A stretch of DNA of 64,000 bases, from positions 1-64,000 of the forward strand of contig JAPOYV010000087.1 of the NCBI GenBank assembly GCA_026706385.1. The letters run 5' to 3'. The DNA comes from Gammaproteobacteria bacterium (GTDB lineage: Bacteria; Pseudomonadota; Gammaproteobacteria; Pseudomonadales; Azotimanducaceae). A model generated the notes under the pieces. That model made no database searches, was not told the DNA's origin, and saw only the letters and a list, made by a program, of their open reading frames with translations. Position 1 is the first letter of the stretch. Each line of letters begins with the position of its first letter. A program made the position numbers and the translations under genes. This document shows, one piece after another, positions 47,251-55,904 of this stretch.

Positions 47251-48606
47251 TTGCCGCGCAACATCCTGTTCATCACCGCCGACCAATGGCGCGCTGACTG
47301 CCTCTCCGGACTCGGCCACCTGGTCCAGACCCCGAACCTCGACGCGCTCGCCCAGGACGGCGTTCTGTTCACCAACCATTTCGCCAACTCGGCACCGTGC
47401 GGGCCCTCGCGAGCCAGCATCCACACCGGCATGCGCCAGCATCGTCACGGGGTGACCGCCAACGGCGTGCCGCTCAAATCGAGATACACGAACTGGGCCC
47501 TGGAGGTCCGGAAACTCGGCTACGAGCCAGCGCTCTTCGGCTACACGGACACCACGCCCGAAGGCGCCGACCCGGCTGATGCGGCGAGGAACATCTCGGA
47601 CGGCGTCCTGCCGGGGCTCGACACCATCGTTCTCCACGGCAAGTCGATCTGGCGACCAACGGCGTGGGCAGCATGGCTACGCGAGGCGGGCTATCCGGTT
47701 CCTGACAAGGCGATGGAGCTTTTCACCGCGACGAGCGACATGAACGACGACAAGCGCCCTGCCCCGCTTCGTGTCCCGGCCGAGTTGCACGACACGCGGT
47801 TTCTGGTCGACCAGACAATCGAATACATCGAACAGCGTTCACAGTGGTGCGTGCACCTGTCGATCTTCCGGCCCCATCCCCCCTGGGTCGCACCGGCCCC
47901 ATACCACGCGCTCTACCCGCCCGACGACCTGCCCCCGTTCAATCGCTCCCCGAGCGCCGAGGCAGAAGGCAGGCTGCATCCGTGGCTGGCCCACGCACTC
48001 GAGCAGAAGTTTGGGCCAGCACCCAACGACGAGGCGGTTGTACGCCGCTGGCAAGCCAGCTACTTCGGGCTGATCACCGAGGTCGACCACAACCTCGGTC
48101 GCTTGTTCGACGCCATGAAAGCCGTCGGTGCTTGGCAGGACACGCTGATCGTCTTCACCTCCGACCACGGTGAACAGATGGGCGATCACTGGCTCATCGG
48201 CAAGCTCGGCTTCTTCGACGAGTCCTACGCCGTGCCGCTCATCATCCGCAACCCAGACGAAGCTGCTGCCCGAGGCGCTCGGGTGGACGCATTCACCGAG
48301 AGCATCGATCTCATGCCGACGCTGCTCGACTGGCTCGGCGCGCCGGTCCCAGGGCAGCAGTGCGATGGCGCGTCGCTACTGCCCGCGACGCTTTATGGGT
48401 CGTTGGGAGACGGCTGGCGAGAGACGGCGTCCTGGGAGTACCACTTCGCTCACGCCGCGCAAACGCTGGGCCTTCCACCGGACCAGTGTCGACTTCACGT
48501 GACGCGAGGGGCCGATTTCAAGGAGGTCACGTTTCCCGGATTCCCGAGTCTGCAGTTCGACCTGCGGGAAGAGCCCGGCGAGAGACGCGCTACCGCCGTG
48601 CCGTGA
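47251..48606 (+). CDS. Cys-type sulfatase, C-terminus possibly shortened
   Basis: 451 residues of the type I sulfatase family. NILFITADQWRADCL supplies metal-binding aspartates; the formylglycine site is C50-G-P52-S-R54 (APCGPSRASIHTG), so maturation needs a sulfatase-modifying enzyme. FTSDHGEQMGDHWLIGKLGF is the second metal motif. It ends at FDLREEPGERRATAVP, where relatives usually continue with an N-L-x-D-x-P-A-Y tail; a neighbouring frame after the stop reads DNPAYQKSNG, hinting at a frameshift and loss of the last part. The start is a TTG at 47251, 16 bases after the Uma2 gene. Confidence 0.87.
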   Translation: MPRNILFITADQWRADCLSGLGHLVQTPNLDALAQDGVLFTNHFANSAPCGPSRASIHTGMRQHRHGVTANGVPLKSRYTNWALEVRKLGYEPALFGYTDTTPEGADPADAARNISDGVLPGLDTIVLHGKSIWRPTAWAAWLREAGYPVPDKAMELFTATSDMNDDKRPAPLRVPAELHDTRFLVDQTIEYIEQRSQWCVHLSIFRPHPPWVAPAPYHALYPPDDLPPFNRSPSAEAEGRLHPWLAHALEQKFGPAPNDEAVVRRWQASYFGLITEVDHNLGRLFDAMKAVGAWQDTLIVFTSDHGEQMGDHWLIGKLGFFDESYAVPLIIRNPDEAAARGARVDAFTESIDLMPTLLDWLGAPVPGQQCDGASLLPATLYGSLGDGWRETASWEYHFAHAAQTLGLPPDQCRLHVTRGADFKEVTFPGFPSLQFDLREEPGERRATAVP

Positions 48607-48634
48607 ACGGGCGACGTCGGGACAATCCGGCGTA

Positions 48635-49396
48635 TCAGAAATCCAACGGAAGGTCGCGCTCGGCAAGGATCCGGTCGCGGTGCTCAACCAGGATGGGGTC
48701 CACCTCCCCCAACGCTTGCGCAGCCGCTTCGTAGACGCGCCGCATCCCGGGTGGCGTTTCGCAAACCGCTTCCGGGAACGTCCTCACGGCTTGAGAGAAG
48801 TACACCCAGTAGATGTCCGCCGCGCTGAGCGCCTCCCCCACGATGTAGCGACGGCCGACCTCTCGCTGCGCGAGGAGTTGGGCGGTCAGCCGATCCGCCA
48901 CCACCCTGGCGCGGTCGACGGCCGAGCGCGCCGCCTCTTCACTGTACCCGTATTGGTCGTACATCGGGTTCCGGAGACGCTCTCGGGCCGCCCGCTCCGG
49001 GCCACCGAACCCGAGCATGATGAGCCGAAGCGCCCAGATGAAACTGTTCTCGCCGATCAGTTCGTTCGAGAGACCCACCATCAAGACGCGATCGTTGATG
49101 TCGGACGGAAAGAGGCTAGGTCCGGAACCGAGCCGTTCTGCGAGATTCAGGATCTCGAGCCAGCCCACGCGCGGCGCCTCGTCGTTGTAAATCGCCACGG
49201 GAGCGTTGCGGTGTCCGGTCCACGCCACGAGGTCCTCGTTCTCGCCGGCCACGACCTGCCGCACGGGGACGTAGGCCACGCCGTGGTGGTCGAGGATCGC
49301 GCGGGCCGACATGCCGTAGGGTGCCGGCACGTGCGCGCTCAACGCGAGGCGCAGGCCGTCCATCTGTCGCGCCACGGCCGGCTCGATGTAGTCCAT
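48635..49396 (-). CDS. Glutathione S-transferase-family protein
   Basis: 253 residues with a thioredoxin-like N-terminal domain (ALSAHVPAPYGMSARAILDH, HRNAPVAIYNDEAPRVGW; the A-P-V cis-proline region) and an all-helical C-terminal domain (SSAVDRARVVADRL-like helix, GEALSAADIYWVYFSQAVRT). No cysteine is evident at the usual GST-omega position. The ATG directly follows the TAG of the selenoperoxiredoxin gene (TAGATG), so the pair must be co-translated. A glutathione-linked role in recycling or supplementing the peroxidase is a reasonable inference. Confidence 0.85.
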   Translation of the reverse strand: MDYIEPAVARQMDGLRLALSAHVPAPYGMSARAILDHHGVAYVPVRQVVAGENEDLVAWTGHRNAPVAIYNDEAPRVGWLEILNLAERLGSGPSLFPSDINDRVLMVGLSNELIGENSFIWALRLIMLGFGGPERAARERLRNPMYDQYGYSEEAARSAVDRARVVADRLTAQLLAQREVGRRYIVGEALSAADIYWVYFSQAVRTFPEAVCETPPGMRRVYEAAAQALGEVDPILVEHRDRILAERDLPLDF

Positions 49397-49921
49397 CTAA
49401 GGCGCCCGCGGCACTCCCAGTGCTTCGAGATTCGCGACCAACTGCTCTCCGGCCTCGGCGGGACTCACTTCCTTGTCGATCTTGCGGATGACGCCCTCCG
49501 GATCGATGTAGAAGGTCCACCGCCGTGCGTACCCCCTCTCGGACAACACGCCATACGCCTGGCTGAGCGTCTTCTCCGGATCCGCGAGGATGGGGAACGT
49601 CGCCGCGTTCTGCTCCGCGAACGCCGTGTTGTCCTCCAACGTGTCGGTACTGGCCATGAAGTAGGCCACGTCGTAGTCCCTGATTTCTTGGTCACTGTCA
49701 CGCAGCGCCTTGCACTCCATCGTTCACCCGCCGGTGAACGCCTTGGGGAAGAAGGCGATCACCACGGACTGCTTGCCGCGGAACTGCTCAAGCGTATAGG
49801 TCGCGCCGTCCGATGCCGATAGCTCGAACTCGGGGGCCGGCTCGCCTTCCTGCGGCGCCGCCCAGGCGGTCCCACAGGCGACCAGGAACGCGGCCGCCAT
49901 GCTCGTTGTGCGAATCCGCAT
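49397..49921 (-). CDS. Exported peroxiredoxin with predicted selenocysteine at the peroxidatic site
   Basis: The frame holds 174 residues if the TGA at 49726-49724 is read as Sec66. Before it: a signal peptide (TSMAAAFLVACGTAWA-AP), then GEPAPEFELSASDG and VIAFFPKAFTGG. After it: TMECKALRDSDQEIRDYDVA, TFPILADPEKTLSQAYGVL, RRWTFYIDPEGVIRKIDKEV. This is a complete AhpC/TSA (Prx) fold in which the stop falls exactly on the peroxidatic cysteine of TxxC. Both halves are in the same frame, with nothing else damaged, so recoding is far more likely than decay. The protein would reduce peroxides in the periplasm. It is co-transcribed with a GST gene that starts at the next base. Confidence 0.85.
49700..49726 (-). 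promoter_or_regulatory. UGA codon and SECIS-like hairpin
   Basis: Just after the UGA (49726-49724) the mRNA can form GUGCA/UGCGU (49715-49711 with 49704-49700, two G-U pairs) around a six-base AGGCGC loop. A short stem-loop with G near the start of the loop is what bacterial SECIS elements share. The loop begins 13 bases after UGA, slightly closer than usual, and the stem is weak, so this is a candidate only. Confidence 0.4.
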
Positions 49922-50081
49922 CGGGTCTCTCCTTGAATGCTCGATCGGGCGAAGGATTCTTTCAGATCAAGGGCGGCGGCGTAAATACGTCATTGCCGGT
50001 AAGAGCCTAGTTCCGATGCTTCTTGGGCGTTACCAACCCGGATATGCTGTGCCGCACCTTGGCCACGACAAGGCGACCACA

Positions 50082-51221
50082 ATGAGCAAAATCGACCGAA
50101 TCACTATTCGGACCTATGAGTACGCGCTCGACAACCGGCCGGGCAGCAACCGGAAACTGACCCGGTTCCTTGTCACCATCGACACGGACGATGGGCTGTC
50201 GGGCTGCTACGCGCCGCATTTCGGGGGCACACCCCATGCCCAGGCACAGGTCCAGGAGATGGCTCGGGATCTCATCGGCATGGATCCGGAGCAACGCGAA
50301 CGTGTTTTCGAACGCTTGAAGCTCAGCCACCGTCACTACGACAAGTCCGGGATCGCTGTCATCGACACCGCGCTGTGGGATCTCGCGGGCAAGAAGTACG
50401 GTGCCCCGATCGCGCAACTGCTCGGTGGATTCCGTGAACGGCTACCCGTCTACGCGAGCACCGCATCGGGACAGCTCGGAAGCAACGGGCTCGGCAGCGT
50501 GGAGAGTTACGCCGACTTTGCCGAGTCATGCCAGGCGGCGGGGATCCCAGGTTTCAAGATCCACAGTTTCTTCGACGCCAATCCCAAGACCGAGATCGCC
50601 ATCATGTCCGCGGTACGCGACCGGGTCGGCGCGGACATGAAGCTCATGAACGACCCCGCGTCCTCGCTCAAGTCGTTCATGGATGCCGTGGAAGTGGGCC
50701 GAGCCTGCGACGACCTCGGCTTCTTCTGGTACGAGGATCCCTACCGCGATGCTTCATCAAGCGCGGTCGCCCACAAGCGCCTGCGCGACTTCATTCGCAC
50801 ACCGATGCTCATCGCGGAGCACATTCGCGGTTTCGAGCAGAAGGCGGACTTCGTACTCGCCGGCGGCACGGACATCATGCACATCGATCCAGAGCTGGAC
50901 GGTGGCATCACCGGCACCATGAAGCTCGCACACTTCTGCGACGCGATCGGCATGGAGGTCCAGCTACACACGGCCGGACCCATGCACCGTCACTGCATGG
51001 CCGCGATCCCCAATACGCATTTCTATGAACTCGGCCTCGTCCGGCCGGACATCCCCACCAACAGCCTGCAGCCACCGATCTACGCCGACGACTACGGCGA
51101 CGAGGTCGGCAACGTGGGGGCGGACGGCTGCGTCCCGGTGCCCACCGGTCCTGGGCTGGGGGTGACCTACGACATGGACCGCATCAATAGCGGCGAGGTT
51201 GGTCGGTTGGAGATTCGCTAA
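50082..51221 (+). CDS. Mandelate racemase/muconate lactonising enzyme-family protein
   Basis: 379 residues of the enolase superfamily. The capping domain opens KIDRITIRTYEYALDNRPGS. In the barrel, GFKIHSFFDANPKTE holds the K-x-H catalytic pair position, LMNDPASSLKS and YEDPYRDAS and LIAEHIRGF carry the Mg2+-binding D, E, E series, and VQLHTAGPMHRH supplies the catalytic histidine. The family abstracts the alpha-proton of carboxylate substrates, such as sugar acids. The ATG at 50082 was chosen for its normal N-terminus, with a long open frame upstream not protein-like. It reads away from the selenoperoxiredoxin gene. Confidence 0.92.
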   Translation: MSKIDRITIRTYEYALDNRPGSNRKLTRFLVTIDTDDGLSGCYAPHFGGTPHAQAQVQEMARDLIGMDPEQRERVFERLKLSHRHYDKSGIAVIDTALWDLAGKKYGAPIAQLLGGFRERLPVYASTASGQLGSNGLGSVESYADFAESCQAAGIPGFKIHSFFDANPKTEIAIMSAVRDRVGADMKLMNDPASSLKSFMDAVEVGRACDDLGFFWYEDPYRDASSSAVAHKRLRDFIRTPMLIAEHIRGFEQKADFVLAGGTDIMHIDPELDGGITGTMKLAHFCDAIGMEVQLHTAGPMHRHCMAAIPNTHFYELGLVRPDIPTNSLQPPIYADDYGDEVGNVGADGCVPVPTGPGLGVTYDMDRINSGEVGRLEIR

Positions 51222-51229
51222 GGGCCAGC

Positions 51230-51772
51230 CTATTCGTTCGCACGACGCCGCACACCGTCAATGAGCCGCCGAGACAGACGATAGCCAACGCCGTTCAAGT
51301 CCGCGAGCACAGGACTCACGGTAGGCAGCAGACCTTTTGACTTCGCCACGAGCAAAACCCCGGCAACCCCTACCAAGGGTATACCCACACGTCGGGCTAC
51401 CTTCCTGCCCTTCTCGTCGTCGATCAGTAGGAACCGCGTCGGCTGTTGGAGGCACAACGCCATCGCTTCGGCTTCGCCGTCGTCCACGATGCGGAGGAGA
51501 TCCGCTAGGCGACCATCCTCCAGCACCGGCGCGACCCGCAACCATCCCGCCGACAGCGCTTGGCCAATCCGATTGGCCCCGGGCCGACCCGATTCCGTTC
51601 TACATTCCCGGTGGACGGCCGGCGGATTGAGGCCGTTTACGAATAGGCGGCGAAGCAGTAGCAGCCTCTCCACCCTGGCAAGTGCAATCAACGGCCCCGC
51701 GTCGGCGACGAAAGGTGGCGGGGTGTCCTGACCAGGTTCGCCGCGTTCAGGAGGCTGCGCTGCGCTCATCAT
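51230..51772 (-). CDS. DUF3368 PIN-like toxin
   Basis: 180 residues. FVADAGPLIALARVERLLLL, VDDGEAEAMALCLQQPTRFL and LIDDEKGRKVARRVGIPLVG are the three conserved acidic blocks of DUF3368, a PIN-superfamily family of predicted RNase toxins. An unusual 18-residue N-terminal extension (AAQPPERGEPGQDTPPP) precedes it. The start (ATG at 51772) overlaps the antitoxin gene by 26 bases. It is paired with the fused antitoxin upstream. Confidence 0.85.
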   Translation of the reverse strand: MMSAAQPPERGEPGQDTPPPFVADAGPLIALARVERLLLLRRLFVNGLNPPAVHRECRTESGRPGANRIGQALSAGWLRVAPVLEDGRLADLLRIVDDGEAEAMALCLQQPTRFLLIDDEKGRKVARRVGIPLVGVAGVLLVAKSKGLLPTVSPVLADLNGVGYRLSRRLIDGVRRRANE

Positions 51773-52079
51773 CGAGTTCCGACGGTTCGTAGTCCACCGC
51801 GGCCACGCCTGTCTTGCCGAGTAGGTCCATGAAATCCTCCACGCCCAGATCGGCCACTTTGGCTGCTTGCGCCAGTGTCAAGTGCCGTTGCTCGAAGAGC
51901 TGCAGCGCGAGCGCACGATGTACGCCTACGTCGAGCAGGCGATCATCGAAAGGGATGGCCAGGATCATCGGTCGCCCATGCTTCGTGACGATTGCGATGC
52001 GACCGTCCTCTGCGTTTCGGAGCAGTTCGGCGGAACGTTGCCTCAGGTCGCGCACGCTGAAGGAAGTGGGTTGACTCAC
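51747..52079 (-). CDS. Phd-like/UPF0175 fusion antitoxin
   Basis: 110 residues. The N-terminal half (SFSVRDLRQRSAELLRNAED, RIAIVTKHGRPMILAIPFDD) is a Phd/YefM-type DNA-binding fold. The C-terminal half (HRALALQLFEQRHLTLAQAA, KVADLGVEDFMDLLGKTGV) is a UPF0175 helix-turn-helix segment, the usual partner of DUF3368. So one chain carries two antitoxin types. GTG start at 52079 with GAGG upstream. A perfect dyad lies 20 bases before the start, and it overlaps the toxin gene by 26 bases, typical of an autoregulated module. Confidence 0.85.
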   Translation of the reverse strand: MSQPTSFSVRDLRQRSAELLRNAEDGRIAIVTKHGRPMILAIPFDDRLLDVGVHRALALQLFEQRHLTLAQAAKVADLGVEDFMDLLGKTGVAAVDYEPSELDDERSAAS

Positions 52080-53430: not shown

Positions 53431-53856
53431 TCAAGGAATGGTTGCCCACGGATCCACGAGTTCAATCCCTAAGGCCTCGAAGTCCGCAATGTTCCGGGTG
53501 GCTACCGCCATGCCGCGTGACCGGGCGATCGCCGCTATCTGGCCGTCGGCCAAAGCGAGGGGACGACCGGTCGCCCTGCGAACCGAGTACATCTCCGCGT
53601 AGACGCGAGCTGCCGGACTGTCGAAGGGAAGTACGCGGCCCGCGAACAGGTCTGCGAACATGCGCTCCACGGCGTCGGCCAGAGCTCGTCGCCGGGCGCC
53701 CGGCGGAAGGACCGCCACGCCAGCGCGAATCTCCGCTTCCGTCACGCTGCTTACAAAAAGACCCCTCGTCCGCTGGCCGTCTACCCACCCACGCACTTCG
53801 TCACGAGGATTGCCGCGCATCAATTCTGAAACGACGTTCGTGTCGAGCACCACCAT
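53431..53856 (-). CDS. PIN-domain toxin (FitB/VapC family)
   Basis: 141 residues. The PIN acidic residues are complete: D5 (VVLDTNVVSELMRG), E42 (TEAEIRAGVAVLP), D104 (LALADGQIAAIA) and D125 (TRNIADFEALGIELVDPW). LPFDSPAARVYAEM and RPLALADGQIAAIAR are typical of the FitB branch. The ATG at 53856 lies 15 bases after the antitoxin stop. This is an intact, standard type II toxin. Confidence 0.9.
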   Translation of the reverse strand: MVVLDTNVVSELMRGNPRDEVRGWVDGQRTRGLFVSSVTEAEIRAGVAVLPPGARRRALADAVERMFADLFAGRVLPFDSPAARVYAEMYSVRRATGRPLALADGQIAAIARSRGMAVATRNIADFEALGIELVDPWATIP

Positions 53857-53871
53857 CCTACCGGCACGCCT

Positions 53872-54117
53872 CTAGTCGAAACGGGGCGGCTCGCGCGTCC
53901 TCTCGCGCGGCGGCAGGTCCAGTTCTGCCCCACCGATTGGCACGAACAACTCGTGGATCGCCGTGCCCAATCCCCTCGTCGGTGCAGCCTCCCGTTCAAC
54001 AGCTTCCGCCAAGATCACGCGGACCTCTTCCTCCATGGAGCGTCCATGCCCGGCCGCCCGTCGGCGCAGCCGCGTCTTCACGTCGTCTTCAAGATTACGG
54101 ATCGTGATGCTGGCCAC
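53872..54117 (-). CDS. FitA-like ribbon-helix-helix antitoxin
   Basis: 81 residues. The N-terminal ribbon-helix-helix (MASITIRNLEDDVKTRLRRR, AAGHGRSMEEEVRVILAEAV) binds DNA as a dimer and is the FitA/VapB pattern. The C-terminal tail (GTAIHELFVPIGGAELDLPP) would clamp the PIN toxin. Start: a GTG at 54117 gives the classic M-A-S-I-T-I-R-N-L, preferred over an ATG at 54168; GAGAGG precedes it. It is upstream of and co-directional with the toxin gene. Confidence 0.88.
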   Translation of the reverse strand: MASITIRNLEDDVKTRLRRRAAGHGRSMEEEVRVILAEAVEREAAPTRGLGTAIHELFVPIGGAELDLPPRERTREPPRFD

Positions 54118-54217
54118 TTTCCTCTCCAGCGTCTCGTCACGCCACCTTACGATGTGATTGCGTTGCAATCAAGAGGATCTGGGTGGTCAATCTCAATAAC
54201 CCGCGACCGTCAACCCT

Positions 54218-55904
54218 CTACTGCACCGCCAGCTCGGAATACGGCAGGACGCTGGCGTCGCCCGGCCAATCGCCCTCGTTGACCGCTCGACGCCAATTGA
54301 AGCCGAGGACTCCCAGAGGGCGGACGGCGTGTCGCCAGTCCGGTACTTCGACGACGCGCACTGGCCCCGGCAGGTCATCCGCAAACCCGCCAAGCCGAGT
54401 CCGCGCCCGTGCCGCCATAGCACCCAAGGCTAAGGCGTGGGAAGGATGGTAGTAGATCTCGACCGGGGTGCCACCGATGTCGTCGTACGCGACGGCGAAG
54501 CGCCCGGAGTGGAACGTCACCACTGGCCGGATCCGCACCTATCGTCCTGTACTCGAAGAACCGGGCCCCGTTCTCTTTCCATTCGCGTTCAAGCGCGCCC
54601 GGCGCCACGGCGATCTGATCCAGCGATGTAGCCAACCGGACACCGAATGCCGCCGGCGGCGCTCGCGCGAAGAACGTCGCCCGATCCATGCCGCCCAGGG
54701 CCGGCAAGACATTCCAGATCCGCAGGATCGTGCCGTTGGCGACTACTCCGTCGGCCCTTGCACCTTCTTGACTCTGGAAGTCGAATGTCACCTTCAGCGT
54801 TTCGCGGGGTTCCAACGGGCGGTTCAGGCGGAAACCCACGACGGCACTCTCAGCAGCATCGGCAAGCTGTTCGCCGGTCAGCGAGAGGGAGTCAACAGCG
54901 AGGCCGGGCGGCACGGTGAAATGGATGTCCGGGATCGCAACATCGTGGCTGTTGACGACAACGGCCGAGCCCCGGGAGCGCAGCCAGCCGTCCGCAGGCT
55001 GCATCTCGACCTGGAGATCGATGCGCGAATACACCGGCTGCGGGATGTCGGGCAGCGACGGGGGCACCTCCGCCATGGCCACCGGCCTGAACGCAATCCA
55101 ACAACCGCTAGCGATCCCGATAACCAGCCCGCCCCAGCCCCATGCCACGGCGGTCGAGGTCAGCCGGCGGCCCGCGGGCGCATTCACGAGATGCACGCCG
55201 ACCAAGAGCGCCGCGCAAAGCCCGGTCCAATAGATGCCGAGCGCCAGGTGGGGTGCGAAGCGAATCCCGTAACCGCCGATATCGGAGAAGGGATCGATCG
55301 GTGCGCCGAACCGCGCGAGTTCCGTATCGAGCGCCAGGTTGACCGTGGCGTATGCCGCGACGGTCACCGCCGCAGCCAGCCAGCGGCGACCGATCACGGC
55401 GTGGAAGACGATCGCGAGGAGCGCCAGGTGCGCGGCATTCCAACCCAGGTTGAAAAACAGACCGTGAGCGTAGACGTCCCATTCGATCCCGTGACCGCGC
55501 AGCCACTGGTAGGCAGCGCCGACCAAGCCGGCGAGCAGAAACGCGATCAACGTCGCCACTACGACGGCCGCGGCCCTTGCCGCCAAGTGCCAACCATGGC
55601 GACCGGGCACTTCGCCGCTGGCGGCAATCGACAACGCCCAAGCCGCCATCGCGAAATTGGCGTAGATCAGATCCACGACAACGCGCGTCGTCGGAACGAT
55701 CTGGCCAAGGCCGAAAACGAGGCCGCCGGCGAGGTTGACGAGGCCCGCCCCCAGGAGGAGCTGACACAGCCGAGATGCGCCTAGGCGGCGGAGCGCCGCC
55801 CAGATGAGCGTCAGGAATCGAGCCGCGTCCGCAAGGACCGGCTCGGCGACCGGGATCGCGTCAGTGGGCGCCTGGCATGGGCCCGCGGGCCGGATAGGGA
55901 TCAT
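54218..55904 (-). pseudogene. Remnant of a membrane M1-type aminopeptidase-like protein
   Basis: The minus strand encodes about six transmembrane helices (LCQLLLGAGLVNLAGGLVFG onward), then a periplasmic beta-rich region (LEPRETLKVTFDFQSQEGAR, ALGGMDRATFFARAPPAAFG, ARFFEYRTIG). At about 54535 the frame breaks and the sequence continues in another frame: RIRPVVTFHSGRFAVAYDDI, GGTPVEIYYHPSHALALGAM, ending VLPYSELAVQ at 54218. These segments match the region ahead of the HEXXH zinc site in M1-type permease-peptidase proteins, which are about 1,100-1,200 residues. So it is frameshifted and cut before the catalytic domain. The N-terminus overlaps the oxidase subunit IV gene by 44 bases. Confidence 0.75.

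Follow-up and report, generated by a model that had tools for sequence, protein, structure and literature searches.

In genome annotation a selenoprotein gene is easily split into two fragments or taken for a pseudogene. Among peroxiredoxins (Prx), whose catalytic residues include a distant arginine, the selenocysteine (Sec) enzyme of Eubacterium acidaminophilum is called PrxU. A family of Sec-containing Prx (pfam00578/COG1225, with the motif TxxU) is listed in the excerpts used here from PMC1088965, PMC2398784, PMC9312934 and PMC13188914, and in the last of these the motif for Sec-Prx is given as PxxxTxxU. The same paper describes the bSECIS as having a loop of 3-9 nt, a stem of 4-16 bp, a G in the first two loop positions, a distance of 16-37 nt from the UGA and an MFE of at most -7.5 kcal/mol. 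For Prx, the excerpt from a 2006 survey (PMC1794560) tallies five Cys-to-Sec and no Sec-to-Cys events. AF(T/S)xxC is given as a feature of AhpE-like proteins in the excerpt from PMC5302317, and it is also present in the protein described here.

The gene that we analysed lies on the minus strand of the window, that is, the whole stretch of 64,000 nucleotides. Its product resembles the Sec-Prx family in its AhpC/TSA domain, in the TxxU motif (here T63-G-G-U66) and in having its predicted Sec at the peroxidatic position. On the sequence evidence we consider it highly probable that this is a Sec-decoded Prx directed by a SECIS element.

Gene structure, predicted fold and export

The original prediction described two open stretches separated by a single TGA at the position of the catalytic Cys, and a reading of the open reading frames agrees with it in coordinates and in codon counts. 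The minus-strand frame from 49921 to 49397 encodes 174 aa and is interrupted only by the TGA at 49726-49724; from the ATG at 49921 it consists of 65 codons, the TGA and 108 codons, followed by a TAG at 49399-49397. With the TGA read as U, U66 stands within FPKAFTGG-U-TMECKALRD. The gene and its surroundings have the following features.

49397-49921, minus strand: encodes an AhpC/TSA (Prx) selenoprotein of 174 aa with U66, probably exported; single in-frame TGA, PF00578 at 108.2 bits
49929-49934, minus strand: Shine-Dalgarno-like AAGGAG 5' of the ATG, read by eye
49856-49921, minus strand: signal-peptide-like N terminus MRIRTTSMAAAFLVACGTAWAA, from the sequence and a hydropathy/charge heuristic; by eye, the likely cleavage site follows AWA or WAA
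49724-49726, minus strand: TGA (UGA) codon of residue 66, predicted to encode Sec where the peroxidatic Cys would stand (TxxU motif); among 96 homologous loci, 50 have TGA here and 46 Cys
49712-49714, minus strand: codon of Cys70, at +4 from Sec, the presumed resolving Cys; present at +4 in all aligned loci
49690-49709, minus strand: candidate SECIS hairpin, with 5' arm 49709-49703, loop CGUGA 49702-49698 and 3' arm 49697-49690; conserved in TGA genes
48635-49396, minus strand: downstream ORF of 253 aa, GST-C-like (GST_C at 19.9 bits, just below the cut-off of 20.7), its ATG abutting the Prx stop
49899-51221, plus strand: enolase-superfamily (MR_MLE) gene, divergent from prx, with Pfam homology from ORF residue 89

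In the Pfam search PF00578 (AhpC-TSA) spans residues 26-147, across the TGA, far above its cut-off of 26 bits. The AlphaFold model has a mean pLDDT of 92.8 and places residues 66 and 70 in the helix 64-75; in the PDB it is matched best by Bcp1 (Foldseek E 7.1e-16) and AhpE, and in the viral structure library only distant matches of Prx/GPx/Trx type were found. The Prx motif P-x3-T-x2-C/U is present as P59, T63 and U66. In an alignment of 78 sequences, taken from 96 extracted homologous loci without near copies, without L024 (which has an extra stop) and without the contig-cut L055 and L070 (L, G and C numbers are our handles for loci, genomes and contigs), P59, U/C66, C70 and R134 are invariant (78/78) and T63 is kept in at least 90%. 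The Cys at +4 was also found in 66/66 aligned loci, and we presume that Cys70 is the resolving residue. The window protein reaches none of the NCBIfam cut-offs (PrxU, NF040737, 48.3 bits vs 270) and has no match to Prx-SUH (NF045827) at E 1e-3; among the other members, Prx-SUH matches are seen in 29 of the 78 sequences, the best at E 2.4e-7 (E-values only).

A simple heuristic of hydropathy and charge, which is not a trained predictor, found signal-peptide-like N termini in 94 of the 96 homologues, the exceptions being L055, which is cut by a contig end, and L113, which has no K/R before its hydrophobic stretch. In the predicted model the pLDDT is 57 over residues 1-20 and at least 94 in the later blocks. 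The original prediction had called the protein exported and periplasmic; for export we rely on the signal-peptide-like N termini given by the heuristic, and the periplasmic location is likewise putative. Its remark that a periplasmic selenoperoxidase would be notable is a fair one, but the Sec-Prx family itself has long been known. The window's genome has a DsbD-type protein, in a frame of 730 codons, which is a plausible electron route to the Prx, and no reductant gene linked to prx was found.

It is possible, with a rather low probability, that Sec is inserted but that the product is a membrane-anchored lipoprotein or a thiol-disulfide oxidoreductase instead of a soluble periplasmic peroxidase. 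Residues 13-16, LVAC, look by eye like a lipobox, but G007 already departs from this motif (LVVC). The U-x3-C spacing is unlike the +5 spacing of the PrxQ relatives, and there is a weak match to the ResA model (35.7 bits vs a cut-off of 170). Against this reading, however, the Prx catalytic residues around U66 are invariant in the case of P59 and R134, the latter presumably the Prx catalytic Arg, and nearly so in the case of T63 (78 sequences), and the predicted model is best matched by Prx structures. We favour a soluble Prx.

The GST-C-like neighbour is perhaps co-transcribed with prx. In a search of 39 loci this ORF was found elsewhere only beside the copy of the nearest relative (90.5% identity), and GST-like and enolase-like neighbours occur only in L050 and L093, both from the G007 contig, so gene-neighbour linkage was rejected as a general explanation. 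The listed start of the MR_MLE ORF overlaps the Prx start; because the Pfam homology begins only at ORF residue 89, the true start probably lies further downstream. Other recurring neighbours were seen in one marine clade (36 loci searched). A promoter scan of 48500-50200 found none, together with one terminator-like site, equal to the number in shuffles, and plasmid records gave no match at E 1e-20.

Elsewhere in the window, the overlapping ORFs 54218-54538 and 54375-55904 (minus strand), which are in different frames, look by eye like one frameshifted protein; the larger, 54375-55904, has no Pfam match. There are also two adjacent pairs of small genes on the minus strand, 51230-51772 with 51747-52079 and 53431-53856 with 53872-54168, and by eye these pairs (51230-52079 and 53431-54168) resemble PIN-type toxin-antitoxin modules.

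The candidate SECIS hairpin

The window hairpin has a stem of five pairs plus two beyond a bulge, the bulge being a single A in the 3' arm, and 21 nt separate the UGA from the loop. It falls within the bSECIS model of PMC13188914, with a loop of 5 nt, G as the second loop nucleotide, the distance of 21 nt and -7.9 kcal/mol; the loop G is followed by U. All five inner pairs and the identical loop CGUGA are present in 38/38 distinct TGA sequences (38 distinct of 50), while the full five-pair inner stem is found in 0/43 distinct Cys sequences (43 distinct of 46), two of which keep the loop. In 33 TGA rows, which are the distinct 48-nt rows from 45 TGA loci, pairing holds in 91.8% of cells, and both partners have changed in three of the pairs. 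One of these is the loop-closing pair, which has switched from G-C to C-G in L083; the same was seen by eye in L097. With shuffles that ignore the relatedness of the sequences, the covariation score of 0.189 was reached by 0/500 (slid registers gave at most 0.085) and the number of doubly changed pairs by 7/500. RNAalifold, to which the structure was not supplied, recovers the five inner pairs of the hairpin in its consensus fold; its own covariation term is small (-0.29).

Codon choice was compared in 35 TGA sequences distinct over 60 nt. The Arg codon at +8 is CGT in 35/35 of the TGA genes, vs 12% of the Arg codons elsewhere in those genes; Ala at +6 is GCG in 29/29 (29% elsewhere), Ser at +10 is AGT in 29/35 (12% elsewhere), and Leu in the hairpin region is CTG in 34/35 (40% elsewhere). 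The synonymous constraint at the hairpin of the TGA genes is strong.

Single-sequence folding after the window TGA was not clearly better than in shuffles (z of -0.47, -0.21, -0.16 and -1.75 in four folding windows), and for this reason the window alone is not decisive and the case for Sec is comparative. The mean folding z against synonymous resampling was -0.76 for 33 TGA and -0.74 for 18 Cys sequences, which is no signal. Four of the 33 folded TGA sequences (L022, L027, L051 and L083) stay above -7.5 kcal/mol, and in 7/33, the window's included, the lowest-energy fold differs from the hairpin. For the window the alternative fold has -8.9 kcal/mol vs -7.9 for the hairpin, and it is not favoured once the first 12 nt are omitted; these would be covered by the ribosome. 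An Rfam gathering scan of the window gave no match.

The TGA might also act as a stop, with re-initiation at the in-frame ATG at 49720, one codon on, to give two products, a piece with the signal peptide and a piece of 107 aa. An ATG does follow directly (TGAACGATG) and opens an ORF of 107 aa. Met is found at +2 in only 16 of the 35 distinct TGA genes, however, the split would fall within the helix that holds residue 66 of the Prx fold, the second piece would be without a signal peptide and the hairpin would be left unexplained. We regard two products as very improbable, and continue with a single protein containing Sec.

Codon 66 in homologues and the Sec machinery

In the 96 extracted loci codon 66 is either TGA (50) or a Cys codon (46; TGC 35, TGT 11), with no other codon seen, and among the 93 distinct proteins 48 are Sec and 45 Cys forms. 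Among the 96 loci are the copy in the window itself (L020) and some repeats: G007, for instance, is there twice, as L021 and L050, and L029 and L074 have identical proteins; G008 (a good match, no locus), the unlocated lower rows of the order-level search and three further phylum matches are absent from them. The Prx protein search in 58 genomes (own included) gave matches in 40 at 1e-15; in 31 of these the top match reached 1.2e-35 or better, and in the others it stood at 1e-19 or worse. A search in named genome contigs gave 36 loci. At 1e-30 there were matches in 5 genomes of the class sample (369 genomes) and 44 of the order sample (293 genomes), both with the own genome included. The phylum sample gave 4/398 at 1e-25, namely the own genome and three without the stop, which lie outside the 96-locus counts. 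The nearest named record is L050 (G007), a Gammaproteobacteria MAG, at 90% identity, and every record of the named relatives is titled as a MAG (metagenome-assembled). By their titles, two of the 36 named loci are Verrucomicrobiales and the others Gammaproteobacteria, Proteobacteria, Pseudomonadales, SAR86 or Pseudohongiella.

Two more distant Prx matches, L091 (G035:C101) and L092 (G029:C6), were flagged with one TGA inside the frame; their TGAs may lie upstream of the start, as in L086, or mark other Sec-Prx genes. A second Prx of the own genome with one TGA (G000:C2:145623-146093) was rejected as an ordinary Bcp TPGCTKEACGFRD, in which the TGA codons lie upstream of the MAIEEG start (chosen by eye).

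We also regard as very improbable a pseudogene or a sequencing error, by which the TGC/TGT of a normal Cys peroxiredoxin would have turned into a nonsense TGA. TGA is one base away from both Cys codons, Cys does stand at codon 66 in 46/96 loci, and the TGA homologue L024 (G035:C145) has an additional in-frame TAA, which may reflect decay or mis-assembly. This is, however, the sole such case among the 66 loci for which inner stops were printed, and the scattered stops in relatives that the original prediction named as a sign of decay are not seen: the TGA is at codon 66 in 50 loci and the other 46 have Cys. Its argument that a random nonsense mutation is improbable gains from the same codon being TGA in 48 of the 93 distinct proteins. 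Between the window's genome (G000) and G007, dN/dS comes to 0.132 for the part that precedes the TGA and 0.163 for the part that follows it, so both parts are under purifying selection in this one species pair, and the hairpin, complete only in TGA genes and with covariation, also speaks against a pseudogene.

The tree of 77 proteins (from the 96 loci, without near copies and L070) requires 4 Sec/Cys changes (4-4 over bootstrap trees), 3 of them forced by well-supported branches, and a quicker tree of 93 proteins also requires 4 changes, 2 of them forced. Four Cys groups stand on a Sec background in these unrooted trees, in which L082, L033 and L097 form long branches. Wherever the root lies, we infer that at least three of the four changes would be from Sec to Cys on the simplest reconstructions. 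Both selA and tRNA-Sec are retained in G025 and G036, two genomes whose Cys forms are nested.

The machinery that the original prediction proposed to look for, selA, selB, selC (tRNA-Sec) and selD, is all found over the family cut-offs in the window's genome (5.1 Mb in 134 contigs and 98% complete), with selA at 536.7 bits, selB at 374.2 bits, tRNA-Sec at 68.8 bits with the anticodon TCA, and selD at 250 bits; selA, selB and tRNA-Sec are adjacent on contig C84. This genome has a second selenoprotein gene, SelW-like, with CTSU and an in-frame TGA (L125, G000:C112:167224-167430). The selD (L018, G000:C3:86502-87407) was seen to lie inside an open frame of 783 codons, possibly an Ndh-SelD fusion of the sort mentioned in the excerpt from PMC2398784. 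Across the 58 genomes (own included) selA has matches in 41, over the cut-off in 39, and tRNA-Sec is found in 38. All of the TGA-form genomes of the 58-genome search (12/12) have tRNA-Sec and selA sequence, G031 having selA only in pieces. In two genomes (L089 of G029, and L082) selA, selB and prx lie head to tail on one strand, and among 99 loci, many with flanks of just 1.5-4 kb, selA/selB are near prx only in L089, L082 and L022 (again G029).

Reading of the TGA as another residue (e.g. Trp, genetic code 4) or general read-through would leave the frame open, but it is the least probable reading of all, with Cys and never Trp in 46/46 non-TGA loci, with TGA making up half (18 of 36) of the other stops counted in the 35 distinct TGA genes and therefore an ordinary stop there, and with the TCA anticodon of the tRNA-Sec. 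Recoding as Sec66, as first predicted, is strongly supported by the machinery, the split between TGA and Cys, the hairpin that is complete only in TGA genes and the selection on the gene. We propose that the UGA at codon 66 would be read as Sec by Sec-tRNA-Sec and SelB, recruited by an intragenic SECIS with the loop CGUGA, 21 nt downstream.

Proposed function and relation to known systems

The protein would be an exported selenoperoxidase of the Prx fold (AhpC/TSA, PrxQ/AhpE-like), carried to the periplasm by its signal peptide, where Sec66 would attack hydroperoxides. Most likely, the selenenic acid would then form a selenenylsulfide with Cys70, which lies one helical turn away, and a periplasmic thiol donor supplied with electrons by DsbD would reduce it. 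The comparison supports the Sec coding, the SECIS, the machinery, the predicted fold and the constraint; periplasmic location, peroxidase activity, the resolving role of Cys70 and DsbD-fed reduction are suggested less surely than a Sec-decoded Prx. We give about even chances to a further proposal, that these proteins form a distinct extracytoplasmic selenoperoxidase subfamily, exported with Sec, using an intra-helical U-x3-C selenenylsulfide and fed by DsbD, in which some lineages have kept the Sec machinery partly for prx (selA-selB-prx) and at least three reversions to Cys were accompanied by decay of the SECIS.

Within the branch, Sec and Cys forms of the same peroxidase can be compared as they occur in nature, the RNA signal being complete only in the Sec forms. 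It also raises the question of how a selenol residue can be carried out of the cytoplasm and stay reduced where the surroundings are oxidising. From the excerpts cited, the Sec-Prx enzyme type is already known and its exported branch seems little described; the open-access literature searched, as far as these excerpts extend, gave no description of an exported Sec-Prx. Parts of the branch may already have been counted in the TxxU Prx set of those publications. What seems new at the level of the branch is the combination of signal-peptide-like N termini, the invariant +4 Cys, the window protein reaching no NCBIfam cut-off, and at least three inferred Sec-to-Cys reversions.

These features also mark its differences from the known systems. 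The Sec-Prx family is unlike this branch with respect to the signal-peptide-like N termini and the invariant Cys at +4, and the score of the window protein with NCBIfam PrxU is below the cut-off. All 38 distinct TGA sequences share one and the same loop, CGUGA, whereas published bSECIS elements are said to vary widely (PMC13188914, excerpt), and the inferred Sec-to-Cys changes, at least three, differ from the Prx tally in the excerpt from PMC1794560, which has none. PrxQ/BCP proteins (Bcp1 3drn, BcpB 5epf) are among the best structural and profile matches and have, as here, two redox residues close in sequence, but the solved sequences 5epf and 2ywn carry their second Cys at +5, whereas here it is at +4, with Sec predicted in place of the first Cys and with a signal-peptide-like N terminus. 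AhpE (Mycobacterium tuberculosis Rv2238c) gives the best single-sequence matches and shares the active-site segment FTG-x-C...LRD; it is titled a 1-Cys peroxiredoxin and has neither a Cys at +4 or +5 nor Sec, whereas the protein described here has the Cys at +4 and, as we predict, Sec.
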